Below, piece after piece: positions 30,168 to 60,108 of a stretch of DNA of 64,000 nucleotides. Source of the stretch: Prosthecodimorpha staleyi. Its GTDB lineage: Bacteria; Pseudomonadota; Alphaproteobacteria; Rhizobiales; Ancalomicrobiaceae. Position 1 is the first letter of the stretch. Each line of letters opens with the position of its first letter. The notes under the pieces were generated by a model that had not been told where the DNA came from, searched no databases, and worked only from the letters and a program-made list of their open reading frames with translations. The DNA is taken from NCBI RefSeq assembly GCF_018729455.1, contig NZ_JAHHZF010000010.1:194122-258121 (forward strand). The letters run 5' to 3'. A program made the translations under genes and the position numbers.

Positions 30168-30257
<90 letters not shown>

Positions 30258-37610: not shown

Positions 37611-39120
37611 CGACGCCCAACTCCTTCAGGTAGCCGGCCATCTTGCCCCGCACCTCGACCAGCTCTGCCTCGATCGTGTTGATCTGCTTCTGCAGAGCTG
37701 CGACGTCGATTTCCTCTTCAGCCTCGAAAGTGTCGACATAGCGAGGGATGTTGAGGTTGAAGTCGTTTTCGGCGATCTCCTTAAGGCTGGTGCGGTGGGA
37801 GTATCTCGGTGTCTCGGCCCGCGCAGCGTAGGTTTCCAGTACCTTGTTGATATGCGCCTCATCCATCACGTTCTGGGTCTTGCCCGGTGTGAACTCCTTG
37901 CTGGCGTCGATGAACAGGACGTCGCGGCGGTCCTCGTTGGCGCCGCCCTGTTCGCGAGAGCGGTCGAAGACCAGAATGGCCACTGGAATGCCCGTGGTCG
38001 TGAACAGGTTGGCGGGCAGGCCCACCACCGCGTCGAGCAGGTTCTCCTCGATCAGCGCCTGGCGGATACGCCCCTCGGCCCCACCCCTGAACAGCACGCC
38101 ATGCGGAACGATGACGGCCACCCGGCCGCTCTGGCGCTTGGCGATCTCGATCATGTGGGTGATGAAGCCATAGTCGCCTTTGGACTTCGGCGGGATCCCG
38201 CGCCAGTAGCGCTTGAACTGGTCGGTATCCGCGTTCTCCGCGCCCCACTTGTCGAGGCTGAACGGCGGATTGGCCACCACCACGTCGAACTTCATAAGGT
38301 GGTCACCCTCGACCAGCGCAGGACTGTTGAGCGTGTCGCACCACTCGATGCGCGCGGCATCCTTGGCGTGAAGGAACATATTCATCCGCGCCAGAGCCCA
38401 GGTCGCGCCGTTCACTTCCTGGCCGTAGAGGGCAAAGTTCTCGGAGCCGACTTCCTCGGCTGCGCGGATCAGCAGCGACCCGGACCCGCAGGCAGGGTCG
38501 CAGATCGTATCGCCCGGCTTCGGGGCCGCCAGCTTCGCCAGAAGGCGTGAGACAGCGGAGGGCGTGTAGAACTCGCCGGCCTTCTTTCCTGCGTCGGAGG
38601 CAAAGCGCGAGATCAGGTAGATGTAGCACTCGCCGATAATGTCTTCGGTCACGCGGCTGGGGCGCAGGTCGAGCGCAGGCTTGGCGAAGTCCTCCAGCAC
38701 GTTCTTGAGGCGGCGGTTGCGGTCCTTCACGCGACCGAGATTGGCCTCTGAGTTGAAGTCGATGTTGCGGAACACGCCTTCGAGCTTGGCGCGATTGGCA
38801 TCCTCGATCCGCTCCAGCGCGATGTTGATCCGCTCGCCGATATTGGGTTCGTTCCGGGCCTCGTAGAGGTCGTAGAAGCTGGCGCCTTCGGGTAGGACGA
38901 AGCGCTCGCGCTCCAGCCTGCGCCGGATCCGGATTTCATCTCCGCCATACTGCTTGCGATAGGTTTCGAGGTGATCCTTCCAGTGATCTGAGATATATTT
39001 CAGGAACAACATCACGAGGATGTAGTCCTTGTACTGACCGGCATCGACGACACCGCGGAATGTGTCGCACGCGGCCCAGGCCGTCTGATTGACCTGTTGC
39101 TGTGTGAGTTGATCGGTCAT
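37603..39120 (-). CDS. hsdM: Type I restriction enzyme, M subunit (adenine methyltransferase)
   Basis: Methylates adenine at the target sites and forms the modification core with HsdS. Residues 1-140 are the helical HsdM N-terminal domain. The catalytic domain has GEFYTPSAVSRLLAKL, the SAM motif CDPACGSGSLL near 208-216 and the catalytic NPPF at 284-287. The 505 residues are a normal length. Its ATG overlaps the stop of the half-S gene by four bases, and its end overlaps rhuM by eight. Confidence 0.96.
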   Translation of the reverse strand: MTDQLTQQQVNQTAWAACDTFRGVVDAGQYKDYILVMLFLKYISDHWKDHLETYRKQYGGDEIRIRRRLERERFVLPEGASFYDLYEARNEPNIGERINIALERIEDANRAKLEGVFRNIDFNSEANLGRVKDRNRRLKNVLEDFAKPALDLRPSRVTEDIIGECYIYLISRFASDAGKKAGEFYTPSAVSRLLAKLAAPKPGDTICDPACGSGSLLIRAAEEVGSENFALYGQEVNGATWALARMNMFLHAKDAARIEWCDTLNSPALVEGDHLMKFDVVVANPPFSLDKWGAENADTDQFKRYWRGIPPKSKGDYGFITHMIEIAKRQSGRVAVIVPHGVLFRGGAEGRIRQALIEENLLDAVVGLPANLFTTTGIPVAILVFDRSREQGGANEDRRDVLFIDASKEFTPGKTQNVMDEAHINKVLETYAARAETPRYSHRTSLKEIAENDFNLNIPRYVDTFEAEEEIDVAALQKQINTIEAELVEVRGKMAGYLKELGVDV

Positions 39121-39722
39121 TTGGACGTCCTTTCCATCCCAATGGTGGGGCTAGTCCTGTTTGCTCTCTCGACGAGGATCAGGCTGATCATCTGTTTTCG
39201 CGTCTCGGCGGCGAGCTGTGAAAGCGCGCGCTCCCGCTCAGCCAAGGCGTCGACCGCGACGATCTTTTCTTGAGTTTCGATGTCCGGCACATCGAGGTCG
39301 AGGTTGTCGAGACTGGATCGGGGTATCATCCGGATGTTCGTGCCCCGGGCCGCAGCGTCGAAGTGGCGCTGTGCCGGGGGCTGATTGATCGCCCATGCCA
39401 GATACTCCGGCGTCACGACGTCACGATTCGGACGCAGGACCATCAGAGGGAGCACTGCAAGAGCGGGTTCCTGCAAACGCTCGTCCAGGGCGGAAGCCGT
39501 GTTGCGATCACCCCGCGATCGAAACAGGACGTCGCCGGCGCGGACGAAGTACCGGTCTGCCAAGTCTTCCAGTTGGACGCGAGTGAGGCGATCCGGGTCG
39601 ATGCGGCCTTCCGGGGAAATGTCCCGCAACTGGATCGCGAGCACGCCCCCGGCGGCCAACGGCTCCAGTCTGCCGCGAGCTGTGTAGCCGGTGTGGATGG
39701 TGCAGGTATCAGCAAGGCGCAT
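39117..39722 (-). CDS. Half-size HsdS-like specificity protein (single target domain)
   Basis: A 201-residue protein that looks like one half of an HsdS: a single target-recognition domain (YTARGRLEPLAAGGVLAIQLRDI, RAGDVLFRSRGDRNTASA, PEYLAWAINQP, GTNIRMIPRSSLDNLDLDVP) followed by one helical spacer (IETQEKIVAVDALAERERALSQLAAE). It is the first gene of the restriction operon, ahead of hsdM, although a full hsdS is present too. It could act as a homodimer with its own specificity, or regulate the complex. GAGG lies eight bases before the ATG. Confidence 0.82.
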   Translation of the reverse strand: MRLADTCTIHTGYTARGRLEPLAAGGVLAIQLRDISPEGRIDPDRLTRVQLEDLADRYFVRAGDVLFRSRGDRNTASALDERLQEPALAVLPLMVLRPNRDVVTPEYLAWAINQPPAQRHFDAAARGTNIRMIPRSSLDNLDLDVPDIETQEKIVAVDALAERERALSQLAAETRKQMISLILVERANRTSPTIGMERTSK

Positions 39723-39732
39723 CGAAAATCCT

Positions 39733-39806
39733 CTGTAACTTTCGCTACAGAAGATAGGCACTCACCATGTTGCCGTCGATCCCGCGATCGCTGTAGGACA
39801 TCCTAC
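39733..39806. promoter_or_regulatory. Inverted repeats upstream of the restriction operon
   Basis: CTGTAAC-TTTC-GCTACAG (39,733-39,750) is an inverted repeat with one mismatch, ending about ten bases before the half-S start and touching its ribosome site. GTAGGA-CA-TCCTAC (39,793-39,806) is a perfect palindrome further upstream. Either could bind a regulator of the operon. No clean -35/-10 pair was identified. Confidence 0.45.
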
Positions 39807-39824
39807 TGCGTAGAATACGAAAAA

Positions 39825-40256
39825 TTAGAGGTCCGGCGAGACCCGCGATGCCAGTTTGGTATGCAGAAACGAGAGCTTTTGAGCTTCCCACTCCACCGGG
39901 AACGGCGCCAGAAGGTCATCCAGCTGCATCGCCGCAGGTTGCCACCCGTCGAGCACCGACACGACGATTTCCGGCGCCAGCAGAGTGAGCCGAAGCAGGC
40001 GACTGACGTAGGACGGGTTGATCCGCTCGGCCGTGGCAAGCTCGTCGATGGTCGCGTAGGCGCCAGTTTCGAGCAGCTTCCGCCACCGGAATGCGCGAGC
40101 GATCGCCTTAACCAACACATTGTCGACCTTCGGCCCGGCGGGCGCCCAGTCGGCGCCATCCGGAGCGAGGACCAGCTTCCGCCCACCGCGCTTGCGCATC
40201 TTGATCGGGATGCTGATCGTGATCGTGTTCGTGCTGGGGTCAAGGATCGCCGTCAT
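39825..40256 (-). CDS. Recombinase-associated helix-turn-helix protein
   Basis: A 143-residue basic protein. Residues 65-95 (TGAYATIDELATAERINPSYVSRLLRLTLLAP) read as a ParB-like helix-turn-helix, suggesting DNA binding. Its ATG overlaps the end of the serine recombinase gene by four bases. I recall this set (DUF2924 gene, recombinase, then such a protein) as recurrent in alphaproteobacterial prophages, so it is probably an accessory or directionality factor for the recombinase; no experiment known to me shows this. Confidence 0.75.
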   Translation of the reverse strand: MTAILDPSTNTITISIPIKMRKRGGRKLVLAPDGADWAPAGPKVDNVLVKAIARAFRWRKLLETGAYATIDELATAERINPSYVSRLLRLTLLAPEIVVSVLDGWQPAAMQLDDLLAPFPVEWEAQKLSFLHTKLASRVSPDL

Positions 40257-41572
40257 GCCGCGACCCTTTCGGTTCCGGTCTGCCGCGCCGCCATGTCCGC
40301 AACCACGCTGCCGATGCCGTCGGCCCGGAACCGAACACGGACATCGGCCAGACCGACGTCGACCCGCGCCACCAGGAGCTGGACGATACGGGCCTGCTCG
40401 GCGGGGAAGAGTTCATCCCACAGCGGGTCGAACCGGATGAGTGCGTCGCGAACGTCGGCCTCGGCAACCTGGCCGCCGCCACGTCGGGCGGCTGCCCAGG
40501 CGGATACGATCGCTTCCGGTGATCTCAGCAGGCAGCGCAGCTGGGCGATGACGGCGCCCTCGATCTCTGCGGCGGGTAACCTGGCCGACGGAGACGGCCC
40601 GCCGGCATTCTTGAGAACGCTCTGGCTGACATAGTACCGATAGAGCCGCCCGCCTTTCCGTGTGTGGGTCGGCGACATCGCCCGCCCGTCCGGACCGAAG
40701 ATCAGCCCCTTCAGCAAGGCCGGCACCTGCGCCCGCGTATTCGCCGCGCGCTTGCGCGGGCTCTCGCCCAGGATGGCGTGGACCTTGGCCCAAAGCTCCG
40801 GCGGCACGATCGCCTCGTGCTCTCCCGGATAGGCGGTGCCCTTGTGAACCGCCTCGCCCAGGTAGACCCGGTTGTTCAGCGTCTTGTAGAGGAACCCCTT
40901 GTCGACCAACCGGCCGCGCTTCGAGGTCACACCCTCTGCGACCAGAGTCTTGGCCAGGGTCGTCGCCGAGCCGATGGTGACGAAGCGCTCGAACAGCGAT
41001 CTGACAGTCTCCGCCTCGGCCGGGTTGATGATCAGCTTGCGGTCCCGGACGTCGTAGCCGAGCGGCGGATGCCCGCCCATCCACATGCCGCGTCGGCGTG
41101 AAGCGGCGAACTTATCGCGGATGCGCTCGCCGATCACCTCGCGCTCGAACTGGGCGAAGGAAAGCAGGATGTTGAGCGTCAGCCGCCCCATGGAGGTTGT
41201 GGTGTTGAACGACTGGGTCACCGACACGAAGGTCACGTCATTCCGATCGAAGACATCGACCAATTTGGCGAAGTCCATCAATGCGCGCGAGAGCCGGTCG
41301 ATCTTGTAGACCACGATGATGTCGACGAGGCCCTCCTCGATATCGGCTAGGAGCCGTTGCAGTGCCGGCCGCTCGAGCGTCCCGCCGGAGATACCGCCGT
41401 CGTCGTAGCGGTCGCGGACAAGGATCCACCCTTCAGCCTTCTGGCTGGCAATATAGGCCTCGCAGGCCTCGCGCTGGGCGTCGAGGCTGTTGAACTCCAT
41501 GTCGAGGCCTTCCTCGCTGGACTTGCGGGTATAGACGGCACAGCGCCGCTTCAGCACCACGGGTTTCGTCAT
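40253..41572 (-). CDS. Large serine recombinase
   Basis: Site-specific integrase/excisionase of the serine family, 439 residues. The resolvase domain begins CAVYTRKSSEEG (nucleophile Ser18) and continues through RYDDGGISGGTLERPALQRLLADI, VYKIDRLSR and AQFEREVIGERIRDK. A recombinase domain follows from about residue 150 (GGHPPLGY, KTLNNRVYLGEAVHKG). The usual zinc-ribbon cysteines are absent. GGAGGA lies eight bases before the ATG, which overlaps the DUF2924 stop by four bases. It probably moved part of this island, though serine integrases seldom use tRNA genes as targets. Confidence 0.93.
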   Translation of the reverse strand: MTKPVVLKRRCAVYTRKSSEEGLDMEFNSLDAQREACEAYIASQKAEGWILVRDRYDDGGISGGTLERPALQRLLADIEEGLVDIIVVYKIDRLSRALMDFAKLVDVFDRNDVTFVSVTQSFNTTTSMGRLTLNILLSFAQFEREVIGERIRDKFAASRRRGMWMGGHPPLGYDVRDRKLIINPAEAETVRSLFERFVTIGSATTLAKTLVAEGVTSKRGRLVDKGFLYKTLNNRVYLGEAVHKGTAYPGEHEAIVPPELWAKVHAILGESPRKRAANTRAQVPALLKGLIFGPDGRAMSPTHTRKGGRLYRYYVSQSVLKNAGGPSPSARLPAAEIEGAVIAQLRCLLRSPEAIVSAWAAARRGGGQVAEADVRDALIRFDPLWDELFPAEQARIVQLLVARVDVGLADVRVRFRADGIGSVVADMAARQTGTERVAA

Positions 41573-42021
41573 GCTGCCGTCCTCCCCGTCTTTAGGCCGA
41601 AGAAGACGAGACCGTTCCAGCGCGTACCCGTGATCGCGCGTGCGATCGCCGAGAGCGACTTGTAGGGTCGGCCCTGGTACTCGAAGTCCTGATCGCGGAC
41701 CGTGACACAGTGCTCGATGCCCTGGTACTCGCGGATCAGCCGCGTTCCAGAGATCGGCCGATCGTCGGCGCGCTTCTTGCGGACCGCGATCTTGCCGCCG
41801 TCGAGCTGTTCGCCGAGCGCCTCGAGGCGCTTGATGGTCGCGGACTTCAGCCCACCGTAGGCTAGCTCCTGGATGCGATAGGCGAGCCGGCTTTCGAGGA
41901 AGCGTCGGTTGTAGGGCGGCGGCTCGGCGTTGAAGAGCTTGCGCCATTCGGCCTTCAGGTCCGGTGTGGAAGTGGTCTTCAGGGCCGCGACGCGCACCAG
42001 CACCCCGTCATCCTTCATCAT
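41569..42021 (-). CDS. DUF2924 domain protein
   Basis: A 150-residue basic protein with the DUF2924 signatures: LKAEWRKLFNAEPPPYNRRFLESRLAYRIQELAYGGL in the first half and GTRLIREYQGIEHCVTVRDQDFEYQGRPYKSLSAIARAITGTRWNGLVFFGL in the second. The family is found next to serine recombinases in prophages of alphaproteobacteria; its function is unknown, and DNA binding is plausible. It overlaps its neighbours on both sides by four bases, so the module is translated as one unit. Confidence 0.92.
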   Translation of the reverse strand: MMKDDGVLVRVAALKTTSTPDLKAEWRKLFNAEPPPYNRRFLESRLAYRIQELAYGGLKSATIKRLEALGEQLDGGKIAVRKKRADDRPISGTRLIREYQGIEHCVTVRDQDFEYQGRPYKSLSAIARAITGTRWNGLVFFGLKTGRTAA

Positions 42022-48693: not shown

Positions 48694-50012
48694 CCGACCT
48701 GACCCCTTCGGACGCACAGGCCCGTGCCATCGCGGCGATCAAGACCTGGTTCGAGACGCGAGCCCACGAGCAGCCGGTGTTCCGGCTCTTCGGCTATGCC
48801 GGGACCGGCAAGTCCACGGTCGTGAAGTTCGCGCTCGACGAACTCGGGCTCGATCCCCACCGCTCCTCGCGCGATGGCGGCTCGCTTGTGCCCGGCGTCG
48901 TCACCGCGACCTTCACCGGCAAGGCCGCCCTGGTGCTCCGGCGCAAGGGCACACCGGCCCGCACCATCCACAGTCTGATCTACAGCGTGGTCGAGGCGAC
49001 CGATGCGGAGATCGAGACCGCCATGGCCGGGATCGAGATGGCCGCGGCCGCCGCCCGGTCGCTCTCCGGCTTTGAGCGGATCGCCGCCGAAGCGGCCATC
49101 GAGGCGCAGCGTCTATCGCTCTCGGCGATGAAGAAGCCGCGCTTCGCCCTGAACCCGCAGAGCGACGCGGCGCATGCCCGCCTCATCGTTCTCGACGAGG
49201 TCTCCATGGTCGGCGAGGACATGGCGCGCGATCTGATGAGCTTCCGGACCCCGATCCTGGTCCTCGGCGATCCGGGTCAACTGCCGCCGATCCATGGCGA
49301 GGGCGCCTTCACGCGCGATGCGCCCGACATCATGCTGACCGACATCCACCGGCAGGCGGCCGAGAGTGCCATCATCCGCGTCGCCACCCTGGCCCGTCAC
49401 GGCGAGCCGATCGGCTTCGGCCGTTACGACGATCATGTCTGCAAACTCCGCAAGCAGGAGGTCACGCCCGCCGAGGCGCTCAAGGCCGGCCAGGTCATCT
49501 GCGGCCTCAACGCCACGCGGCGCCAGCTCAACAACGCCATGCGGCATGCCGCAGGGCTCGGCCTCGGGACGCTCCCGACCGGACCGGCTGAGAAGATCGT
49601 CTGCCTGAAGAACCAGAACGACCTCGGCCTGATCAACGGCATGTTCCTGACGCTGACCGACATCGTCGACGACGGCAGCCTGCACGTCTCGGCCCGGGTC
49701 ACCGACGAGGACGGCCATCCGGTCGGGGCCCCGGGGCCCGACGGTCGGCTCGCGCGGTTGCGCATCTACAAGGGCGACTTCGAGGATCACGCCGCCTTCG
49801 ATCCCACCCGGCACGACCGGGACTGGAAGGCCAAGCGCGGTCTCGTCGAAGCGACCTTCGGCTGGGCGATCACGGGCCACAAGGCGCAAGGCTCGCAGTG
49901 GGAGACGGTGATCGTCTGGGACGACGGTCTCGGCCGGACCGATCTCGATCGACGCCGTTGGCTCTATACCGCGGTCACCCGTGCCGAGCGGGGCCTCGTC
50001 ATCTTAAGCTGA
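48690..50012 (+). CDS. SF1 helicase (RecD/Dda-like)
   Basis: A 440-residue DNA helicase with Walker A GYAGTGKS at 35-42, HSLIYS, motif II LIVLDEVSMVG, motif III LGDPGQLPPIHGEGAF, motif V-like GWAITGHKAQGSQW and motif VI LYTAVTRAERGLVIL. It lacks the long N-terminal domain of RecD2, so it resembles phage Dda-type helicases. GGAGG lies eight bases before the ATG, which overlaps the nuclease gene by four bases; the two proteins probably work together. Confidence 0.92.
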   Translation: MTDLTPSDAQARAIAAIKTWFETRAHEQPVFRLFGYAGTGKSTVVKFALDELGLDPHRSSRDGGSLVPGVVTATFTGKAALVLRRKGTPARTIHSLIYSVVEATDAEIETAMAGIEMAAAAARSLSGFERIAAEAAIEAQRLSLSAMKKPRFALNPQSDAAHARLIVLDEVSMVGEDMARDLMSFRTPILVLGDPGQLPPIHGEGAFTRDAPDIMLTDIHRQAAESAIIRVATLARHGEPIGFGRYDDHVCKLRKQEVTPAEALKAGQVICGLNATRRQLNNAMRHAAGLGLGTLPTGPAEKIVCLKNQNDLGLINGMFLTLTDIVDDGSLHVSARVTDEDGHPVGAPGPDGRLARLRIYKGDFEDHAAFDPTRHDRDWKAKRGLVEATFGWAITGHKAQGSQWETVIVWDDGLGRTDLDRRRWLYTAVTRAERGLVILS

Positions 50013-50020
50013 GGGGCTCG

Positions 50021-52555
50021 ATGCTCGACCTCAACGATGTCTGGACGCCGCCCGTCCGGATCGATTGGCGCCAGGTGCGCGAGCGTCTGGAAGCGACGGC
50101 GGCCGATTGGCTGCCGGCGCTTTTTCCGGCTGCGCGCCTTGCCGCCGACCGCAGCCACATGCGTGTTGCAGACCTCTCCGGCCGGCCGCCACGACGGGAG
50201 GGGTCTTGCGTCATCCATCTCGTCGGTCCCTATGCCGGCTGGGGCTTCGACCACGCCACCGGCGAGAGCGCCGGGCCGATCGACCTGATCCATCATGCGA
50301 CCGGGCTTGCTCAAGGAGCTTTGTTCGAAGAGGCCACCAGACTGGCGAAGCTCGATGCGCCGCTCCCGGCGCCGCGGCCGCTCGTCACCAAGCTCGATCC
50401 GGGACCGGAGATCGCGCGCATTCTCGCTGGCTGCCGTCCGGTCGCGGGGAGCATCGGAGATGCCTACCTTCGCGCGCGCGGCCTGACCGATCCAAAGTCG
50501 CCCGATCTCTTGTTCCACCCCGATCTGACCGACTACGAGGGCCGACGCGGCTGGCCCGGCCTCGTCGCCCGCCCGCGCGATGCTTTCGGCGAGCCCGTCG
50601 CCGGCATCCACCGCACCTTCCTGCTCGAGGACGGGTCCGCCAAGGCGCCGCCGAACAAAAAGATGCTGGGCTCCGTGGCCGGCGGTTCCGTCCGGCTGAG
50701 CCCGATCGGTTCCGACGGCCGCATCGGCATCGCCGAGGGCATCGAGACCGCGCTCGCCGCGGCTCACCTGTTTGGTATGCCGACCTGGGCGGCTCTGTCG
50801 GCCGACGGCTTGCGCCGCTGGGTCTGGCCCGAGGGATTGACCCACGTCACGATCTTTGCCGATGCCGGCGCGGCTGGCCGACAAGCCGCCGCGATCCTGG
50901 CCGACCGACTGAACCTTGCAGACATCCCCAACACCATCGTCGTCCCGCTTCACGGCGACGACTTTGCCGACGATCTTGCCCGCGGGGCGACAGCCGCGGA
51001 CTATGGTCCCCATCCTGCGAATCCTCCGCCCGGGCCAACCGCACTCGCCTCGACCGCGAGCTTCGAGGCCGAGTTGGAAGCGACCGCCCGCGCGCTCACC
51101 CGCCCGCCCGATCTTGCCGCGCTCGGCGCACTCCTCGCCCGTCTCGTCGTCGCTCGCCTCGATCCCGTTCCAGAACGCCAGATCCTGGCTGCGATCCGGA
51201 CCTCGACCGGGATCGCCGTCTCGATCCTGGAGAAGCAGATCGGCGAACTCCGCCGCCGCCTCAATGCCACCGGCGACGTGCACCGCACCCTGCCGCGTCC
51301 CGCCTGGGCGGGCCGCCTCCGCCTCGATCTCTCCGGCACGCCCGAGCGCAATGAGGCCAATGTCATCACCGCGCTCACCGCCGACGAGGCCTTTGCCGGC
51401 GCCCTCGTCTTCGACGAGTTCCGGCAGGAGATCGTCGTCAACCGGCGCCTGCCCTGGGACGAGCACGACCACGGCCGCCCCCGCGCCTGGTCGGATGCCG
51501 ACGACGTCCGCTGCGCCGAATGGCTGCAGCGCCGAGAGATCAACGTCGCCCCGGTCGTCGTCGGCCGCAGCGTCGCTGCGGTTGCCCGCGACATTCGCGT
51601 CCATCCGGTTCGCGACTATCTGCGCGCCTTGCGCTGGGACGGCATGCCCCGCCTTGAGCGCTGGACCCTCGACTATCTCGGCGCCGACGACACCGCGCTC
51701 GCCCGCGCCTTCGGATCGCTGTGGATGATCTCCGCCGTCGCCCGCGTCATGCGTCCCGGCGCCAAGGTCGACCACATGCTGATCCTCGAAGGCCCGCAAG
51801 GCGCCCGCAAATCCTCCGCCCTCAAGGCCCTCGCCGGCGCCGACTGGTTCACCGATGAGCTCGCCGAGATCGGCTCCAAGGACGCCGCCCAGCAGATGCG
51901 CGGCATCTGGATCATCGAGATCGCCGAACTCGACGCCATCGGCCGTGCCGAGGTCTCGCGCATCAAGGCCTTCCTCACCCGCACCGTCGACCGCTACCGG
52001 CCGCCCTACGAGCGCTACGTCGTCGAAGTGCCGCGCCAGTGCGTCTTCGCCGGCAGCGTCAACCCCGACACCTACCTGCGCGACGAGACCGGCAACCGCC
52101 GCTTCTGGCCCGTGCGCTGCGGCCGCATCGACCTCGCCGCCCTGGCGCGCGACCGCGACCAGCTCTGGGCCGAGGCCGTCGCCCGCTTCGATGCCGGCGC
52201 CATCTGGTGGCTCGACGACCCCGGCCTCATTGCCGCGGCCAGCGCAGAGCAGGAAGCGCGCTACCAGTCCGATGCCTGGGACGACCTCATCGAGGCCTGG
52301 CTCACGACCGAGACCCACCGCGTGAATCGCGGCTACAACGGGTTCGACGACTGGCGCGATGAGACCGTCGAGCGAGCCTCGCCGCTCACCGACGTCGCGA
52401 TTGGCGAGATCCTGCGCGACGCCATTGGGATCGAGCCGGGGCGGTGGACCAAGTTCGACCAGATGCGTGTTGCGGCGTACCTGAAGGCGAACGGGTGGAC
52501 CAGGTATCAGCGGCGGCTGGGCGACGTGAGAGAATGGCGGTATCGCAAAAGTTGA
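50021..52555 (+). CDS. Primase-helicase: Toprim plus virulence-associated E domain
   Basis: A large replication protein of 844 residues. The N-terminal part is a primase with a zinc-less entry domain and a Toprim core (IGIAEGIETALAAAHLFG near 235-251 and VTIFADAGAAGRQA near 276-289). The C-terminal half is a VapE/SF3-like ATPase domain: EFRQEIVVNRRLPW, P-loop GPQGARKSS at 591-599, IIEIAELDAI and DETGNRRFWPVR. Proteins of this type start replication in phages and phage satellites. The start has GAGGGG five bases upstream; the N-terminus MLDLNDV resembles those of two upstream operon genes. It ends 34 bases before an IS remnant. Confidence 0.9.
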   Translation: MLDLNDVWTPPVRIDWRQVRERLEATAADWLPALFPAARLAADRSHMRVADLSGRPPRREGSCVIHLVGPYAGWGFDHATGESAGPIDLIHHATGLAQGALFEEATRLAKLDAPLPAPRPLVTKLDPGPEIARILAGCRPVAGSIGDAYLRARGLTDPKSPDLLFHPDLTDYEGRRGWPGLVARPRDAFGEPVAGIHRTFLLEDGSAKAPPNKKMLGSVAGGSVRLSPIGSDGRIGIAEGIETALAAAHLFGMPTWAALSADGLRRWVWPEGLTHVTIFADAGAAGRQAAAILADRLNLADIPNTIVVPLHGDDFADDLARGATAADYGPHPANPPPGPTALASTASFEAELEATARALTRPPDLAALGALLARLVVARLDPVPERQILAAIRTSTGIAVSILEKQIGELRRRLNATGDVHRTLPRPAWAGRLRLDLSGTPERNEANVITALTADEAFAGALVFDEFRQEIVVNRRLPWDEHDHGRPRAWSDADDVRCAEWLQRREINVAPVVVGRSVAAVARDIRVHPVRDYLRALRWDGMPRLERWTLDYLGADDTALARAFGSLWMISAVARVMRPGAKVDHMLILEGPQGARKSSALKALAGADWFTDELAEIGSKDAAQQMRGIWIIEIAELDAIGRAEVSRIKAFLTRTVDRYRPPYERYVVEVPRQCVFAGSVNPDTYLRDETGNRRFWPVRCGRIDLAALARDRDQLWAEAVARFDAGAIWWLDDPGLIAAASAEQEARYQSDAWDDLIEAWLTTETHRVNRGYNGFDDWRDETVERASPLTDVAIGEILRDAIGIEPGRWTKFDQMRVAAYLKANGWTRYQRRLGDVREWRYRKS

Positions 52556-52588
52556 TTGCCAGTGACGTGCTCCCCGTTTTCCTGCCGG

Positions 52589-52981
52589 TCATAAGTTTGG
52601 TCCGGCGGTGATTTGGCCCTGATCGGGCCGGCTGGCGAAGACCGACGGTGCGAGGCCGCCGAGGCTCGAATGGGGGCGGAGGGTGTTGTCGTCGATCCAC
52701 TAGTTTTCGATGATCCGTCTCGCCTCGGGCCGAGCGAGGAGAAGACATGCTCGTTCATGCATTCGTTTCGGAGCCGACCGTTCAAGCTCTCGGCGAAGGC
52801 ATTCTTGCCCAGCGCGATGTAGTGCCACTCGATCCGGATCGCCTCGCGGAAGCGCAGGACGGTATGGCTGATGAATTCGGTGGCGTTGTCGCTGACGATC
52901 ATGACAGGCTTCCCACGACGGGCCACCAGCGCCTCCAACTCTCGCATGACCCGCATGTTCGCGCGATCAAACAATTCCGAC
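52589..52981 (-). pseudogene. IS3-family transposase remnant
   Basis: C-terminal piece of an IS3 OrfB integrase-core transposase. The frame shows NMRVMRELEALVARRGKPVM, then IVSDNATEFIS (second catalytic Asp) and AFAESLNGRLRNECMNEHVF (third catalytic residue, Glu). The sequence then shifts frame near 52,737 and resumes as EARRIIEN, a TAG stop where tryptophan is expected, and WIDDNTLRPHSSLGGLAPSVFA. The 5' part is missing upstream of 52,981. It is non-functional debris between the primase gene and hipA. Confidence 0.85.
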
Positions 52982-52991
52982 GGCTAAGATC

Positions 52992-54272
52992 TCACGTGAG
53001 CCGTCCGGCCATCTCGCGGATGATGGTGTGCAGGACGCCGCGGAGACAGCGCTGTTCGCCTTGAGGCGTCACGATACCGTCGTTGCCTGCTTCTATTTCG
53101 GCGAGCATCTCCTCTGCGATTCCTACGATGCGGCCATGTTGCCTGCTGATGAGACGCTCGGCAGTGGCCGCCTGCAATCCAAGTGTACGTGCAGCGTCGA
53201 TAAGAATAGGGCGGTTGAGCGCTGAAAAGCGACCGGCTCCCATGACTGGCCATGCAAGCGTCGACCCATCGGGCCACCCCTGTTTTTGATAGAGGCGCGA
53301 GTCATAGATCGCTGTGCTCAGCAGATCATAGAAGGGTGCCGGTTGAATACCTGCGGACGTTACGAGGAAGCTCAGGTTCTTGAGGTGTGCGTCTCCGTTG
53401 CCGAGCAGCACATTAAAGACAAGCCAGTTGAAGAGGCGGGTGCGCGCAAGCGCCGGGCTGCGGCAGAGTTCGGCCAGTGCCGCGAGCGTTTCGACGCTGC
53501 CGCGCGCGTATTTGAATGAGCGGTCGAGATTGAGAAGCTGGCAGGCATCGATGGCGTGCAGCCGCCGCCATTCGGCTGCGGTCTGTTGCCTGTCAAAGCG
53601 TCGGATCAGGTAGACGGGCTCGGGGACGTAGCGGCGTTCTACATCGGGAACCTCGAGGCCGAGCGCGCGCGCGAGCCTCATCGAGAACCACTCGTTGATG
53701 ACGGAGTGGGGATAGTCTTCGTCTGGATGATCCGGCTTTAGGATGTGGGTCGATGGCTGTGCACCAATTGGCTCGAAGAGTGCGCCGTTCTCGATCACGA
53801 CGGCGAGCTTGTGCTGTGCACCGGCCAACGACATGCGCTTTACGGCATGGCGTCCGAGGGGGGCATTCGGAAGCGCCTTGATGCGGGCGGAGAGGTCGGC
53901 GTCGGGCAGCGGCCTCAAGCCGCCGGCGGGTACTTGCGCCTCGGGAGGCAGGAGGGTCAGGGCGCCGGCAGACTCGGCGCCGTAGTAGGCGAGCAAGCCG
54001 AAGGCATCGGCAGCGTCGATTTTGGCGTCGGTGGCGAGGAGTGTGCGCTGCGCTTCCTCGGGGAGGAGATTGTCGAAGAACCACTGCACGGGTCGGTTGC
54101 TGCCGCCATCGATATGGGGCTCAGCGCGTAGGGCCAGGTGTGGGCTCAGCGGGTAGCGCTGCGCATTCTCGAGCCAGCTTTCGACGTAGGTGAACGACCA
54201 GAGGCCCGCGACCTCGCCCAATTCGCCGACCGGTTGACCGTTGATGGAGGCGACGAGCGTCCGGGCGGCCAT
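52992..54272 (-). CDS. hipA: HipA-family toxin kinase
   Basis: Serine/threonine kinase toxin; the E. coli enzyme phosphorylates glutamyl-tRNA synthetase and causes persistence. The 426 residues match HipA: NGQPVGELGE and FFDNLLPEE in the N-terminal subdomain, SLAGAQHKLAVV (autophosphorylation serine, here Ser148), LIRRFDR, catalytic GNGDAHLKN (Asp294) and PFYDLLST (Asp316). All key residues are present, so the kinase should be active. Its ATG shares one base with the hipB stop (TGATG), so translation is coupled. It may stabilise the island. Confidence 0.93.
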   Translation of the reverse strand: MAARTLVASINGQPVGELGEVAGLWSFTYVESWLENAQRYPLSPHLALRAEPHIDGGSNRPVQWFFDNLLPEEAQRTLLATDAKIDAADAFGLLAYYGAESAGALTLLPPEAQVPAGGLRPLPDADLSARIKALPNAPLGRHAVKRMSLAGAQHKLAVVIENGALFEPIGAQPSTHILKPDHPDEDYPHSVINEWFSMRLARALGLEVPDVERRYVPEPVYLIRRFDRQQTAAEWRRLHAIDACQLLNLDRSFKYARGSVETLAALAELCRSPALARTRLFNWLVFNVLLGNGDAHLKNLSFLVTSAGIQPAPFYDLLSTAIYDSRLYQKQGWPDGSTLAWPVMGAGRFSALNRPILIDAARTLGLQAATAERLISRQHGRIVGIAEEMLAEIEAGNDGIVTPQGEQRCLRGVLHTIIREMAGRLT

Positions 54273-54529
54273 CAACTCTGCTCCGTGCCCTTCGGCAGGT
54301 ATGACCGGGCTTCCTCGGGCAGGTCCAAGACGACGTGGATCCCGAGGCCCTGCAGGACCTGGAACAGCTTGTTCCATTGGGCCTTGTCGGCACCGTGCTC
54401 GATCTTGCTCAGGAAGTTCTCGCTCACGCCGACAGCGCCCGCGGTATCGTCCTGGCGCATTTTCTGGGCCTTACGGACGGCCCGGACCAGTGGGCCGATG
54501 TCGGTCGCCTTGGAGAGTTTGATGCGCAT
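54272..54529 (-). CDS. hipB: HipB-family antitoxin
   Basis: An 85-residue antitoxin and repressor. The XRE-type helix-turn-helix spans residues 12-65 (LVRAVRKAQKMRQDDTAGAVGVSENFLSKIEHGADKAQWNKLFQVLQGLGI). A short strand (HVVLDLP) and a flexible tail (RSYLPKGTEQS) follow; in E. coli HipB the tail is where Lon degradation starts. It is the first gene of the pair. Three symmetrical operators lie directly upstream, with the first two bases before the start codon. Confidence 0.93.
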   Translation of the reverse strand: MRIKLSKATDIGPLVRAVRKAQKMRQDDTAGAVGVSENFLSKIEHGADKAQWNKLFQVLQGLGIHVVLDLPEEARSYLPKGTEQS

Positions 54530-54530
54530 G

Positions 54531-54653
54531 AATCCTCACGATCATGAGGATTTTAACAGAAGCGTCGGCCTCCAGCAATATAATCCTGACGATCGTGAGG
54601 ATTATGGTCCTCGACGCTCAGCAAATGCCGAAATCCTCGCATTTGTAAGGATT
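54531..54653. promoter_or_regulatory. Three hipBA operators
   Basis: Three 22-base palindromes of the form AATCCTCA-N6-TGAGGATT: 54,531-54,552 (perfect), 54,582-54,603 (one mismatch) and 54,632-54,653 (a weaker copy with two differences). Their centres are 51 and 50 bases apart, about five helical turns, so bound dimers would face the same side of the DNA. E. coli HipB binds TATCC-N8-GGATA, which shares the ATCC/GGAT core but with shorter spacing. Confidence 0.75.
54550..54578 (-). promoter_or_regulatory. hipBA promoter
   Basis: Reading toward hipB, TTGCTG (54,578-54,573) and TAAAAT (54,555-54,550) are 17 bases apart, about 20 bases before the ATG. The first operator overlaps the -10 box and the second lies just upstream of the -35 box. 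Confidence 0.65.
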
Positions 54654-54839
54654 TCTCGACAAGGCTACCGCGACAGGGACTGACACCGACTGGCCGGGCC
54701 CGGCACGGAGCTCGGATCCGCACCGCCCGGGCGCGGGCTTCCGGCAAGAAATTGTTCGTCGTCTGGCTTGTCATGGCTCCATCCTATTCGGGAGTTGGAG
54801 CCTCCGGCAAACCCGGGCGGTTCACTCCGTCGAGAACCG

Positions 54840-57800
54840 CTATTCTTGCGCGGCACGCCAACCACTACGAAAGACAAGACCAGTCCGCCACCGCATCAAC
54901 GCCGCCTCGCCGACATCGCATCGAACACTGACCAATTCGCGCAACATGTTGAATTCACGATCGTCGAGAAGAGCGACTTGCCAGCAGTCTTCGGAGAATT
55001 CTCCCAAGACGTTGTTCTTTTGAGTAATGCGCCAACGGGCAACGATGGCCTCCAGGGCTCGGCCTTTGAACTGGGCATGACCGTAATCGTCGACCTCGAT
55101 TTCCCGTTTCACGACGGTCCAGCCATCCTCGGCCCTGGAAGCCTGGGATTGGGTTATCGGGGTCAAGCCATCAAAGGAAACCGGTGCCGAACCAGCCGCC
55201 TGCTTCTCGAGCAAGAGGCGAACCTTTTCCAAAAGGCCGCGGGCCGTAGCGCCATTCTGGGCACGCAACCGGGCTTCCACGGCATCCCGTTCGGCTGCCG
55301 CCTGTGCTTGGCGGCGCTCCGCAAGCTGGGCAGCGTCGCGGGACGCGCGGGCACGGTCCTCCTCGGCCGCAATGGCCTCAGCATCCCGTGCGCGGATAGC
55401 GGAGGCTTCCGCGTCGATTGCCGAGGCTTCCACAAGGACCGGTGCCGCTGCATAGGGGAGTGCATCACGCCGCATCGCCGTCATGAGTTTGCGAACGGTT
55501 TCCGCCGTTCCCGTCACGGCTCCGCAACTGCGCTTCTGAACGCCCACGAACATCGCTTCAGCGCCGAGCGACAAGCGACGCGCTGATCCTCCCGGCGGCA
55601 ACCCCGGCCAAATGGCTCGCGACTCGCGGCCCAAGAGTTCGATGGCCGCCCGGTTCTTGGCAGGATCCTGCAACTCTTCAACGCAAAGGATGGGGGTCTT
55701 GTCGGAAACGACCAATACCGACCAGCCGGTCGCCCGACCGGCCTCGATCGCGGCTTCGATCTCCATACCGCGCGTCGCAGCCGCGCGGACGGTTTCATCA
55801 TACTCGTTGCCAGCCATATTCCGATGCAGCTTCAAGTCGCCCTTGTCGAGCGCCCGGCCGTAGAAGGCGAGGCTCTCGGGTGTATCGGCGCGCAGATCGG
55901 CACGCCGGAAGCCGACGAAGTCGGATGTCACCCGTCCGGTTCCGCACGCCGTCGGTGCCACCTCGACGTTCAATCCTGGTCGTGCGAGCAATCGGGCGAG
56001 CGCAAGCCTGTCCGCCGCTTCGACCTTAGCTGCGACGATGCAGGCGGTGGCGATGTTATCCTTGAAGCGAAAATCACCGTCGAGGGTTCGGGTGAGATTC
56101 GGCGCACGGCCGCTGGCGTCGAAGAGGATCAAGACTGCAGCCGGATCTCCTTCCACCACCTCCCGTGCCGTCGGTCCGAGGCCTAGTCTCTCCGAAAGGC
56201 TTGCAGGCGGTCGTGGCGGCTCAGGCGGACGCTGACGTTCGGCATAGGCCTTCGCGGCGAGATCATAATCGCTCTTCAACGGCTCCGTCTGAACCTGCGC
56301 CGCCAAGGCTTGATTGGCGGCGCGCAAGTCAGACGCAGATTTAAGTTTCAAGGCGTGGGCCAGCGATTCTTGGATCGGCAGAAGCCGTGCAGCAGCCTGC
56401 GTGGCGAAATTATTCGCCATGTATCGATCAATGAAGAAGAGGCCAAGTTGGGCTTCGGCTTCGGCTTGGCTGAGAATTCGCGCCTCCTCCCGCTGGCGCA
56501 ATTCGCGCCGGTCCGAAACGTAGGCTTCGAAGCCTTGAAGTGACCGGACTGCCTCGTCGAGCTTGCGGCGCGCCTCGGTCAGCCGAAGCAGGTCACCGGC
56601 CTCGAGGGCGGATTGAAGCTGCAGGGCGACGCGGCTGAGGTCGGCGATGCCAGGGACGACTCCCCGATCCGCCAGATAGGCCTTCAGATCGGCGAGCAGG
56701 TCACGCGCCGCGACCATGCGCGGGTCGTCCGCGCGCAAGACGACAGCCGGCGCGGGGGGCGGGGAGCCTTGGCCCGTGGTGGCCGAGGCTCCGCCATTCG
56801 ACGTCGCGGCGCTGCTGCCAACGCCCGTCCCCGCGGCCATGGCATCCGGGACCGGAGCGAAAGCCTGGGTGCTGTTCAGGGCCGCGATGCCTGAGGTGCC
56901 TGGTCTCGTGCCTGCGGCGACTGCCAAATTTGGCGGTGTCGCGATCCGACACTCCGCATTCCACGAGTCGGTCTGCCGCTTCGTGCGCGTATCGAAAACG
57001 CCTTCGGAATAGATGAGCCGCCCGCGGGCATCGACCTTGGTGGTGCCGACCATGCTGAGCGTGGGGCGATTGCGCCGCACTCCGGTCCATTCGATCGCCC
57101 GTCGACGGGCATCGGCGGTGACGGACCTTGCCTCGTATTGATCGGCCCGGTGATACTCCGTGCCAGACGCCATGCGATGGACGATCGACAGACGGCCTCC
57201 GGAAATCTGGATGGTCGTGAGTGCGATAGGGTCCGGGTCGGACGATATCGTCGTCGGACTGCAATCGAGCGCAAGGTCTCCGGTTCCGGGGGACGCCGTG
57301 AAAGTCTGGTGCACGACGGTGGGCGCCACTGGAGGCATCGCGGCTGCGAGCCCGTCCGACGACGCCGTGCAGAGCGATGTCGATCCATCCGTGACCCGGC
57401 CGAGGTTCAGGTCGGTTACCGTTTCCGTGTAGAGAACGCGACCACCGGCATCCAACGAGGTTCGGCCATCCATGCGGATGTTGGGCCGTGTGCGGAGAAC
57501 GCCTGACCAGATCAAGGCTTTCTGCCGCGCGTCGGCGCTGCCCGGCGACGCGATATATTGATCCCCACGGTGGTACTCCGCACCGGAAGCGGCCCGGTGA
57601 ACGATGGAAAGACGGCCGGCCGTCACGGCGATCGTGGTCGAGACGATCGGGTCGGAGTCCGATGAAGGCTCCGAGGGCCGACATCTGAGCGTGAAATCGA
57701 TAGTCGATGCGACCGGAATGCTCGCGTGAAGATCGGACGCGACCGACGGGTCCGGTGTCAGAACATTGCCACGGGCTCTCGCGCAGCGGCTGCGCGGGGC

Positions 57801-58046
57801 GACGAGCATGGGGTCATCGGGTGAAACACCGTTGCTGATGATGCGCCGCAACGACATGCCTTGCCTGGCCATCTCCGCGTCGATGCAGGCAAGCTCCCGT
57901 TCGTCGAATTGCCTCCAGGCCACGACGTTTCGCGCGCCCTGCTGTTGCGCCATGGCACCAAACATCAACGCGAACGGATCCACCTGTTGGGCGAAAGTCG
58001 GCGCTGCGAGCAAGATGAAAACAAGGGAGATAGGAGCACGCAGCAT
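54840..58046 (-). CDS. Large exported protein of unknown function with duplicated domain
   Basis: A 1,068-residue protein with a classical signal peptide (MLRAPISLVFILLAAPTFAQ), so it acts in the periplasm or outside. Order: a cysteine-bounded helical domain (about 40-95; ACIDAEMARQGMSLRRIISNGVSPDDP); two homologous repeats of about 110 residues at 116-226 and 257-366, each beginning and ending with a cysteine exactly 104 residues apart and sharing GRLSIVHR-ASG-EYHR-DQY; a Ser/Thr/Pro linker; a long helical region (about 445-620); a mixed alpha/beta part; an Ala/Glu coiled coil; and a C-terminal domain around ARWRITQKNNVLGEFSEDCW. No named family fits. The start is the ATG nearest the signal peptide; ATGs at 58,061 and 58,076 are alternatives. 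Confidence 0.8.
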   Translation of the reverse strand: MLRAPISLVFILLAAPTFAQQVDPFALMFGAMAQQQGARNVVAWRQFDERELACIDAEMARQGMSLRRIISNGVSPDDPMLVAPRSRCARARGNVLTPDPSVASDLHASIPVASTIDFTLRCRPSEPSSDSDPIVSTTIAVTAGRLSIVHRAASGAEYHRGDQYIASPGSADARQKALIWSGVLRTRPNIRMDGRTSLDAGGRVLYTETVTDLNLGRVTDGSTSLCTASSDGLAAAMPPVAPTVVHQTFTASPGTGDLALDCSPTTISSDPDPIALTTIQISGGRLSIVHRMASGTEYHRADQYEARSVTADARRRAIEWTGVRRNRPTLSMVGTTKVDARGRLIYSEGVFDTRTKRQTDSWNAECRIATPPNLAVAAGTRPGTSGIAALNSTQAFAPVPDAMAAGTGVGSSAATSNGGASATTGQGSPPPAPAVVLRADDPRMVAARDLLADLKAYLADRGVVPGIADLSRVALQLQSALEAGDLLRLTEARRKLDEAVRSLQGFEAYVSDRRELRQREEARILSQAEAEAQLGLFFIDRYMANNFATQAAARLLPIQESLAHALKLKSASDLRAANQALAAQVQTEPLKSDYDLAAKAYAERQRPPEPPRPPASLSERLGLGPTAREVVEGDPAAVLILFDASGRAPNLTRTLDGDFRFKDNIATACIVAAKVEAADRLALARLLARPGLNVEVAPTACGTGRVTSDFVGFRRADLRADTPESLAFYGRALDKGDLKLHRNMAGNEYDETVRAAATRGMEIEAAIEAGRATGWSVLVVSDKTPILCVEELQDPAKNRAAIELLGRESRAIWPGLPPGGSARRLSLGAEAMFVGVQKRSCGAVTGTAETVRKLMTAMRRDALPYAAAPVLVEASAIDAEASAIRARDAEAIAAEEDRARASRDAAQLAERRQAQAAAERDAVEARLRAQNGATARGLLEKVRLLLEKQAAGSAPVSFDGLTPITQSQASRAEDGWTVVKREIEVDDYGHAQFKGRALEAIVARWRITQKNNVLGEFSEDCWQVALLDDREFNMLRELVSVRCDVGEAALMRWRTGLVFRSGWRAAQE

Positions 58047-58409
58047 ACAATTTCCACGCATTCTTGCTGACCACACGGCCGTCTTAAGGGAGGAGGGGAC
58101 CTCCTGTCAGACGACCTTCAGCAAGCTAGACCTGTGCCTGCGGGCTGGCAATGCTCGCGGGTAGCAATAACGGAGTGCGCATCCGGCGAGTACCACGGTC
58201 CCCGTCGTTGACGGTGGGGAGCGTCAGGCAACGACGTGTTGGTCCGGCTTCGGCTTCCAGTTCCAGGGCGGCAGGGCATTGATCGCCCCCGCGGAAAATC
58301 CGGAGACCCCAATCCTAATCATCTGCACCAAATTGCATCGGCACATCGAGCGCAACCATCAAGACTTGAAGCAGGGAGTCGATCACTAAGAGAGTCGAGG
58401 GTGGCTCCT
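58047..58409. other. Intergenic region with possible transposase scar
   Basis: Upstream of the exported protein. On the minus strand near 58,226-58,290 one frame reads AINALPPWNWKPKPDQHVVA followed by a stop, which looks like the tail of a transposase, possibly IS66-like, without the rest of the gene. No complete gene or RNA is recognised. Confidence 0.35.
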
Positions 58410-58674
58410 GTCACCAACCCCCCGTTTGTCACCAACCTCCAAACGAGGTTGGTGACAAAATTTCCTCATTAAATTCAACGCTGTCACCAACGTCACCATT
58501 GTCACCAACCTCTTTCAAACATGCATGAAGGAGGCGGTGTCCGGCTTTGGGGTTTCACACCCCTATAGGAATATGTTTGGTGAGGTTGGTGACAGCCGAG
58601 GTTGGTGACTATCGGACCAACCATTTGACGTAGAACGGAATTTCCTGTCACTAACCTCCCACGGGGTTGGTGAC
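58410..58674. repeat. Array of GTCACCAAC(C) repeats in both orientations
   Basis: Forward copies of GTCACCAAC or close variants start at 58,410, 58,428, 58,483, 58,492, 58,501 and 58,647; reverse copies (GGTTGGTGAC) start at 58,447, 58,584, 58,600 and 58,665. The copies at 58,483, 58,492 and 58,501 follow each other with a 9-base period. The pair at 58,425-58,459 forms a perfect 15-base inverted repeat with a 5-base loop. The intervening DNA is AT-rich. It lies 138 bases before the RuvC-like gene and resembles an iteron or operator cluster. Confidence 0.85.
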
Positions 58675-58811
58675 AGGAGAGGCGCGGGTCTGTGTCTTTT
58701 CGATCCGGCCGGCCTTGCCGCTTCTGATTTTGGCTTCCGGACATCGGGGCGCTGAAGCTATTCTCGCGACGACCAAAGCCGAAGGCCCACGCAGTCCCGT
58801 GAGCCTTCCCC

Positions 58812-59342
58812 ATGCAGAAATCCCTGATCTCGGCGACCGACCCGACGGCTCAATCCCGCCGGCTGTCGAACGACCATCACGCCTTCCTCGCCCTCGACCT
58901 TGGCAGCGCGACCGGCTGGGCCTTGCGCTCGCCGGACGGGCACATATCCAGTGGGACGGTCTCGTTCCGCCCAAGTCGCTACGACGGCGGCGGCATGCGC
59001 TACCTGCGCTTCCGGTCTTGGCTCGACCAGATCGAAGCCCAAGCGCGTGGGATCTCGGCGGTCTATTTTGAAGAGGTCCGCCGCCATGTCGGTACCGACG
59101 CCGCTCACATCTACGGCGGCTTCCTCGCAACCCTGACCGCCTGGTGTGAGACGCATTCGATCGCCTACCAGGGTGTTCCGGTCGGGACGATCAAGCGGCA
59201 TATCACCGGCAAGGGCAATGCCAACAAGGCCGCCGTCACCGCGGCGGTGCGCGCCCATGGCTTCGTCCCGGCCGACGACAACGAAGCAGACGCCATCGCC
59301 ATTCTGATCTGGGCGACCGAGACCGATGGAGGTGTGCGATGA
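58812..59342 (+). CDS. RuvC-like Holliday junction resolvase (phage type)
   Basis: A 176-residue nuclease with the RuvC/RNase H fold: LALDLGSATGWAL (first catalytic Asp), VYFEEVRRHVG (Glu), AHIYGGFLATLTAWCETHSI, GTIKRHITGKGNANKAAVTAAV and DDNEADAIAILIWA (terminal acidic pair). Phage RuvC proteins resolve branched DNA before packaging. It resumes the phage-type plus-strand operon after the cargo region, and overlaps the next gene by four bases. Confidence 0.9.
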   Translation: MQKSLISATDPTAQSRRLSNDHHAFLALDLGSATGWALRSPDGHISSGTVSFRPSRYDGGGMRYLRFRSWLDQIEAQARGISAVYFEEVRRHVGTDAAHIYGGFLATLTAWCETHSIAYQGVPVGTIKRHITGKGNANKAAVTAAVRAHGFVPADDNEADAIAILIWATETDGGVR

Positions 59343-59557
59343 GCCGCCCCCTCCCAGGCGCTCCGCGTGAGCCGAGCTGTGTGCTCGGGCGGATGATCCC
59401 GACCTCGATTGCCCCGGACGCCGTGAAGGCGGCGGGCTGGCGGGATCACGGCCTTCTTGTCGTCGCTCTCAACGACCCCCGTCTTGGCTGGGCCGACCGT
59501 GAACTGATCCGCACCATCGGCGAAAAGCTCTACGGCACTCGGGAGGGAAGGCGATGA
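59339..59557 (+). CDS. Small hypothetical phage protein
   Basis: A 72-residue protein (MSRPLPGAPREPSCVLGRMIPTSIAPDAVKAAGW, then LLVVALNDPRLGWADRELIRTIGEKLYG). GGAGG lies five bases before the ATG. It shares ATGA with the RuvC-like gene upstream and another ATGA with the gene downstream. Function unknown; the overlaps support it being translated. Confidence 0.75.
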   Translation: MSRPLPGAPREPSCVLGRMIPTSIAPDAVKAAGWRDHGLLVVALNDPRLGWADRELIRTIGEKLYGTREGRR

Positions 59558-60108
59558 GCACGGGACGCAAGCGGAAGGCCCGTGCCACCATTGACCGGCC
59601 CGCCAAGCCGTCGGCGCGTCTCGTGACCCACCAAGTTGTCGAGGCCGATCCCGATGGCGTTCGCGTCGTCCACCACCGCGTTGTCGACACGCTGGGCCGG
59701 ATGTTCGCTGCCGGCACGATCGACGGCGACATGCTGAGCGCCGCCCGCGACTTTGAAGCGGCCTTCACGCTCGCGAGTTTCGATCGCATGCCGTCGGCGT
59801 CGCTTGTGCTGGTTCACGCGCCCGGCACCCACATGGGCACGATGAGCGATCGGCAGATTGGCGCCCGCGAGAGCGTGTTCCGGGCGCTTGACACGCTGGG
59901 CGGCATGGGCTCGCCGGCCGGCTCCTGCGTCTGGCACGTGGTCGGCCTGCAGTCGTCGCTTCGGGAATGGTCGATGCGCCAGGGCTGGGGTGGCCGGGCC
60001 GTTCGCCATGAAGCGGCCCAGGGCATCCTGGTCGCCGCGCTTGGGGTGTTGGCGAGCCGGTCGCGTGGCAACAGCCGAATGAGCGCTGCGATGGAGAGGA
60101 ATAGATAG
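59554..60108 (+). CDS. DUF6456-like phage protein
   Basis: A 184-residue basic protein. The C-terminal half (VWHVVGLQSSLREWSMRQGWGGRAVRHEAAQGILVAALGVLASR) matches the DUF6456 style of proteins seen in alphaproteobacterial phages and gene transfer agents. The N-terminal half contains VRVVHHRVVDTLGRMFAAGTIDGDMLSAARDFEAAF. It may bind DNA. A GGGAGG-rich stretch precedes the ATG. It ends the overlapping RuvC gene string. Confidence 0.7.
   Translation: MSTGRKRKARATIDRPAKPSARLVTHQVVEADPDGVRVVHHRVVDTLGRMFAAGTIDGDMLSAARDFEAAFTLASFDRMPSASLVLVHAPGTHMGTMSDRQIGARESVFRALDTLGGMGSPAGSCVWHVVGLQSSLREWSMRQGWGGRAVRHEAAQGILVAALGVLASRSRGNSRMSAAMERNR

Follow-up and report, generated by a model that had tools for sequence, protein, structure and literature searches.

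A modular, apparently exported prophage protein and an uncharacterized six-cysteine family of Alphaproteobacteria

We analyzed a 64,000-nucleotide stretch of Prosthecodimorpha staleyi DNA, hereafter the window (contig NZ_JAHHZF010000010.1, positions 194,122 to 258,121, of the 6.19 Mb, 47-contig assembly GCF_018729455.1). From 42.5 to 64 kb the window is a prophage encoding a Sak4-like protein, a Dda-like helicase, a VapE-type primase, RuvC, a ParB/methyltransferase and a neck-type protein. Between its VapE and RuvC genes, on the opposite strand and together with hipBA and an integrase-core remnant, lies the gene whose product we call the window protein (Table 1). An in-frame GTG at 58076, upstream of the ATG, would extend the protein by 10 residues if used as the start, and a promoter scan for the gene found nothing. 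The window protein appears to join a conserved six-cysteine core to an N-terminal half of its own, and we tentatively suggest that it helps the lysogen exclude competing phages at the cell envelope.

Table 1. Features of the cargo slot and of the window protein; residue numbers refer to the protein.
Feature	Position in window	Strand	Remarks
VapE-type primase/helicase, left slot border	49898..52555	+	
Integrase-core (rve) gene or remnant, IS3-like by reading	52507..52974	-	
hipA, neighboring cargo	52992..54377	-	
hipB-like helix-turn-helix (HTH) gene	54272..54529	-	
Single-gene unit missing from sister-species genome G001, 3,576 bp	54829..58404	.	CTCC at both edges
Window-protein gene; modular, apparently exported protein of 1,068 residues	54840..58046	-	Open reading frame (ATG at 58046, stop at 54840), translation
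Two-Cys C-terminal domain, residues 931-1068; D-[YF]-G, C1021, C1043, S-x-W	54843..55256	-	
Ala/charge-rich presumed coil linker, residues 869-930	55257..55442	-	Composition
Four-Cys domain, residues 620-868; C669, C701, C788 and C841 invariant	55443..56189	-	
Ala-rich, presumably helical stalk, residues 441-605; family-conserved, weak internal repeat	56232..56726	-	
Twin repeat copy 2, residues 250-372, C262-C366	56931..57299	-	
Twin repeat copy 1, residues 112-232, C122-C226	57351..57713	-	
Two-Cys N-terminal module, residues 40-92, C54 and C88	57771..57929	-	
Putative signal peptide, residues 1-19, ...TFA|QQ	57990..58046	-	Sec-type by eye
GTCACCAACC inverted-repeat array	58405..58679	.	Outer arm 58405-58421 / 58663-58679 is the unit's right edge
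RuvC-like resolvase, right slot border	58812..59342	+	

From its N-terminus, the window protein comprises a signal-type start, a two-Cys module, a twin repeat, an Ala/Gly/Pro-rich linker, a stalk, a four-Cys domain, a coil and a two-Cys C-terminal domain, with cysteines at residues 54, 88, 122, 226, 262, 366, 669, 701, 788, 841, 1021 and 1043; the helicity of the N-terminal module and stalk was judged from composition and reading. A first-pass annotation had seen here a modular protein that looks exported and fits no known family. The modular and apparently exported character is supported at the sequence level. Searches of Pfam, NCBIfam, PHROGs, PADLOC and PDB sequences recognized no family, and no characterized family matched along the full length; the protein is not unique, though, as it has uncharacterized relatives. 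A Pfam UCR_14kD match (E 0.035, under the cut-off) and PDB matches found with the core profile (at E 2 or above) were read as chance, impressions of solute-binding or SPOR-like parts found no database support, and a comparison of the two halves of the four-Cys domain gave no support for an internal repeat. The label of effector found no support: profile library searches returned no toxin, protease or secretion signature, and the relatives point to the cell wall. A protein acting on competitors as an antibacterial effector or surface toxin might well be large, modular and apparently exported, with a long stalk and a variable N-terminal half. However, the window protein has no toxin-domain match, no secretion or immunity gene was found among ten window neighbors scanned, and hipBA is a separate unit that occurs in G001 without the window-protein gene, making this the least credible of the readings we considered.

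The twin cysteine-framed repeat held up under comparison. Both cysteine pairs, 122-226 and 262-366, are spaced by 104 residues, as first proposed, the copies are identical at 61 of 121 residues (50%), and their local alignment scores 290 against a maximum of 51 over 500 shuffles, so that the pair clearly looks like a duplication. DNA identity between the copies is 60%, 68% and 34% at codon positions 1, 2 and 3, and this concentration of divergence at third positions suggests that the duplication is old and has been constrained at the protein level. A search with the N-terminal half matched 8 of 297 genomes, with five matches of E above 3e-4 dropped and G157 and G055 the strong ones besides the window's own. 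In two other genomes of the same order, proteins of about 400 residues (L037, L038) appear to be exported and carry a single cysteine-framed repeat copy together with a second conserved part, which in L037 has no Pfam match. The repeats of the window protein, small and cysteine-bounded with an SG-x-E-Y-H-R motif, occupy the place of the wall-binding domain found in relatives. This would suit an inhibitor of lysins or lysozymes, or a decoy, in which the twin repeat binds cell-wall hydrolases, those of phage tails included. There may be some likeness to MliC/LprI-type inhibitors, but neither the window protein nor the repeat relative L037 matches a Pfam inhibitor family, and we consider an inhibitor or decoy improbable. 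As for the two-Cys module, it is 28% identical over 55 columns (pairwise) to part of a Methylobacterium plasmid relative and is perhaps common to the two proteins. A weak, two-row profile of this module matched, among 219 genomes of the order, the window's own and no other; the idea that the module is common in Bradyrhizobium was thus not supported. The N-terminal 355 residues had no match at E 1 in an all-plasmid search.

Residues from about 445 to 1068, covering stalk, four-Cys domain, coil and two-Cys domain, define a rare, previously uncharacterized alphaproteobacterial family. A tblastn search of 72,556 plasmid records found five relatives, all from Hyphomicrobiales, of which three align at about 445-1068, a Methylobacterium protein at 572-1063 and a Rhizobium fragment at 970-1066; with a Mesorhizobium query, seven plasmid records match. 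Rows of our 16-row alignment that hold the full core are 19-27% identical to the window protein. All 15 rows with the middle domain keep its four cysteines, all 16 rows keep the two C-terminal ones, and the window protein shares the stalk, four-Cys and two-Cys homology, the D-[YF]-G motif and the full set of six invariant cysteines. The C-terminal domain had been called distinct at first pass, with a suggestion to look for it in other proteins. It proved to be a genuine, conserved domain. Other proteins have it, including L022-L024, which have this domain alone of the core, and across 12 such domains D, G, C, C, S and W are invariant. The small L022-L024 proteins are apparently exported, pair the domain with a weak peptidoglycan (PG)-binding match, and in three genomes of one genus adjoin another such protein and a pyrG-like gene.

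Domains are shuffled between family members. The middle domain occurs twice in the Methylobacterium relative and is missing from L020, while L021 consists of the middle and C-terminal domains. The plasmid proteins of Aminobacter SR38, Methylobacterium NYY1, Agrobacterium A47a and Mesorhizobium 131-2-5, annotated as peptidoglycan-binding, hypothetical or YqkE family proteins, match the window protein in core, six cysteines and domain order at about 19-24% identity over the core, but their N-terminal half is of the PG_binding_1 type where the window protein has its two-Cys module and twin repeat. L020 (genome G219, same order) has the stalk and C-terminal domain and, like the window protein, no PG-binding match; it differs in lacking the four-Cys domain and in its N-terminal half. 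These two proteins pair on the family tree with support of 98/99, the window branch being long and L020 filling 49% of the columns. The tree leaves out L035 (N-terminal match only), the broken L034 and L006, the C-terminal-domain-only L022-L024, L004 (the same protein as L025) and L027 (a near copy of L026). On the Rhizobium RCAM05350 plasmid (L006/L034), the family gene is fragmented, and its several pieces carry separate annotations as hypothetical proteins.

PG_binding_1 (PF01471) is listed for 12 of the 15 relatives scanned, with a weakest E of 0.013 and four matches above the Pfam cut-off; nine of the 12 were fetched via the core and three (L028, L030, L031) by N-terminal-half patterns, and several are close kin. 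It is not listed for L020, L021 or the 150-residue fragment P0006. A wall-binding domain thus seems to be what the core is usually joined to; in the window protein, other modules stand at that position. The signal-peptide-like start, read by eye, the even numbers of conserved cysteines and the PG-binding relatives together argue for an oxidized, wall-associated protein. We therefore take the window protein to be probably exported, likely disulfide-bonded and likely located in the envelope.

For the position of the gene, we inspected 117 viral loci that had been retrieved with VapE or RuvC, the second fetch being the best 80 of 379. Among them, 49 have RuvC without an upstream VapE, 20 have a VapE match that falls short of its end, and 34 distinct loci have both genes, the rest being duplicates or lacking RuvC. 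The VapE-RuvC gap measures 356-523 bp in 25 of these 34, 1,013 bp in one and 1,517-4,654 bp in eight, compared with 6,256 bp in the window (52556-58811); the first 38 loci, under slightly different rules and with duplicates kept, gave a short gap in 26 of 34 and a long one in 8 of 34. Filled slots hold AbiEi/AbiEii in one case, and a CBASS cyclase with a phospholipase effector in another (L063). Of the remaining seven, one combines an HNH effector-like gene with a weakly ATPase-like one, one pairs a histidine kinase with what reads as a response-regulator-like gene, and one carries thymidylate-synthase and DNA-modification genes plus an M78 peptidase; the others contain a DUF3800 gene, a homing-type NUMOD4-HNH gene, a multicopper oxidase, and an acetyltransferase together with an HTH gene, respectively. 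This confirms the gap as a variable cargo slot of this phage group and agrees with the first-pass view of a gene beside hipBA in a cargo slot, hipA and the hipB-like gene both adjoining it.

Within the slot, the gene forms a unit by itself. In G001, from a sister species, the same hipBA (HipA 99.6% identical) directly joins the repeat array and RuvC region without the window-protein gene, and window positions 52069-54828 (97.5%) and 58405-59791 (91.1%) match sequence that is contiguous there; hipBA is thus no obligate partner. The 3,576-bp difference comprises the gene, 11 bp past its stop and 358 bp upstream; on its right it stops at the outer end of a perfect inverted repeat of 17 bp. In L047, L050, L051, L052 and L055, flanks likewise differ up to the first GTCACCAAC repeat. 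Because the G001 junction falls exactly at the repeat edge where the flanks of other phages also change, we favor an insertion in the window at the array edge. Loss from G001 is less favored but conceivable, since the prophage there is a remnant that also lacks the counterpart of window 42.2-52.1 kb. The GTCACCAACC array before RuvC, dense in direct and inverted repeats, is perhaps an origin or regulatory site. In nine slots checked, several repeats occur in the same five loci, one in L048 and none in L054, L057 or the CBASS-bearing L063, and with the array missing or reduced in four of nine, the CBASS slot included, it is not required for cargo.

An insertion of this kind could also be a passenger that arrived with mobile DNA and brings the phage no benefit. 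The integrase-core remnant in the same slot, a third-position GC content of 0.71, where most host genes of the window have about 0.86-0.92, and the CTCC at both unit edges, which fits chance end-joining, would all suit such an arrival. The frame is nevertheless intact over 3.2 kb, and this, together with the bias of repeat divergence toward codon position 3, argues that selection has kept the protein, at least until recently. A passenger therefore seems rather unlikely. Elsewhere in the window, a tRNA-Ser(cga) gene at 30168-30257 is followed by type I restriction-like genes (30650-42000, by eye), and this tRNA gene is a possible integration site of the island or prophage.

Distribution adds to the picture of a sporadic gene and not, in this lineage, of a conserved housekeeping gene, the outcome that would have sat poorly with the first-pass view. 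The gene occurs in one of three genomes of the genus and one of 15 of the family, in both cases the window's own. With its own genome included, matches were found in at least 4 of 397 genomes of the order and at least 5 of 385 of the class, and a C-terminal-domain profile matched at least 3 of 398 genomes of the phylum, two of them rows of that profile; these three counts are lower bounds, as the method scores few candidates per genome. The other four class matches lie in one family, and three of them cover the C-terminal domain only (E 1e-6 to 3e-6). An earlier scan of species-genome contigs with the window protein itself found none. A pattern scan of such contigs found 11 loci, 10 of them with the core: five from Aureimonas, two from Mesorhizobium, one from Pseudaminobacter, one from Agrobacterium (again the protein of plasmid type) and the broken copy from the Rhizobium plasmid. 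Its patterns represent the N-terminal half of PG-binding-type members, and other types are undetectable by it. Three pattern scans of viral contigs confirmed no relative. The family is thus patchy, and it occurs on plasmids and chromosomes.

The neighborhoods of relatives are mixed. On L004 (2678-14242), the Agrobacterium plasmid copy is preceded by an SH3 gene and hxsBCA and followed by IetA/IetS and a PDC-S31 gene; the tail of its HxsA reads by eye like a PG-binding domain. No Hxs maturase was found among ten window proteins scanned, and the window protein does not qualify as part of an Hxs system. Close to one Mesorhizobium copy there is a PDC-S37/Hhe helicase, and close to another an N-terminal fragment of GajA. 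Xre/RES toxin-antitoxin genes adjoin the copy in L002 and are no more than about 5 kb away in L005 and L099, two Mesorhizobium plasmids (the L099 copy is truncated) that also have multiubiquitin/ThiF/E2-type genes within a few kb, and an HNH restriction-like gene lies near the copy in L030. PADLOC E1-E2 matches of the Mesorhizobium ThiF gene were set aside as defense evidence, because the score of a MoeB-like gene is just as good. Taken together, the association of the family with defense genes is suggestive.

The same evidence could describe a general envelope fitness factor with no anti-phage role, in which case a peptidoglycan-associated protein would help its carrier cells maintain wall integrity or tolerate stress. 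PG_binding_1 in most relatives scanned would fit this, as would the Aminobacter copy inside a denitrification cluster, the Aureimonas copies among housekeeping-like genes and the C-terminal-domain-only relatives adjoining pyrG- and eno-like genes (the last two by reading). Against it stand the patchiness of the family in the order and the genus and the window copy itself, which is without a PG-binding domain and sits in a slot able to host defense genes. We regard a general envelope function as possible, nearly as likely as entry exclusion, which is our first choice with about a third of our belief.

Entry exclusion is chosen for two reasons, the position in a prophage slot and the probable envelope location. 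A prophage benefits from extra genes that are expressed in the lysogen. The window-protein gene is prophage-encoded and lies outside the structural genes, as a superinfection-exclusion gene would. The conserved C-terminal core would form the base of a Sec-exported, disulfide-bonded envelope protein, in which the two-Cys module and the two repeats of about 120 residues take the place of the relatives' PG-binding domain. The N-terminal modules would then place the protein while the six-Cys core does the work. Carried by the prophage as a cargo unit of one gene, within a slot for accessory genes, some of them anti-phage, it could, when expressed in the lysogen, set up a periplasmic or cell-wall barrier to the entry of a competing phage. 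That the window protein is such a barrier remains a tentative proposal, and phage exclusion itself is a guess.

Several results weigh against this proposal. The window protein matches no PADLOC family at E 0.001, no PHROG and no PG-binding domain in the Pfam scan, and it has no relative among 50,697 phage records and no homolog within the 117 viral loci, which leaves the prophage location as the single tie between the family and phages. Established defense systems fill only two of the nine filled slots, with candidates in one or two more. The ten neighbors of relatives among which PADLOC recognized IetA/IetS, PDC-S37/Hhe and the GajA fragment had been picked by eye, and a further scan of ten close neighbors at seven loci yielded one restriction-like match and one false positive, the MoeB-like match to E1-E2 models. 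The housekeeping-like surroundings of the Aureimonas copies and of the C-terminal-domain-only relatives also point away from phage exclusion. A broader idea, that the six-Cys family represents a so far undescribed device by which Alphaproteobacteria exclude phages at the envelope, moving as single genes among plasmids, chromosomes and a prophage slot with swappable N-terminal anchors that position the core, is more doubtful still.

An unannotated gene has thus become part of a defined family with a testable location and role. The VapE-RuvC slot, which in other phages holds CBASS and AbiE, is a practical place to seek new lysogen-encoded functions. To our knowledge, phage exclusion at the level of the envelope is poorly sampled by searches aimed at cytoplasmic defense operons. 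A narrow literature search found no paper linking terms that might describe the family with superinfection exclusion.

Known systems offer functional parallels for both the protein and its setting. CwpV of Clostridioides difficile is an exported cell-wall protein that blocks phage after adsorption and needs its signal peptide to do so (PMC4737114), and SieA is an envelope protein encoded by prophage P22 that blocks P22 DNA injection (PMC10883804). The window protein resembles CwpV, by functional analogy, as an exported-type protein with repeats. CwpV differs in being host-encoded and phase-variable, and its antiphage part is the C-terminal repeat domain (PMC4737114). With SieA the window protein shares a prophage origin, again as an analogy of function, whereas SieA is an inner-membrane protein (PMC10883804). 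As for the setting, an account of prophage hotspots, those of P2 and P4 among them, describes fixed sites with variable accessory genes that include defense systems (PMC9122126). The VapE-RuvC slot is likewise a fixed prophage site with variable genes, some of them for defense; it differs from the hotspots as that account presents them in belonging to other phages and another site, in the two of nine filled slots with defense systems, and in a window cargo that looks exported.

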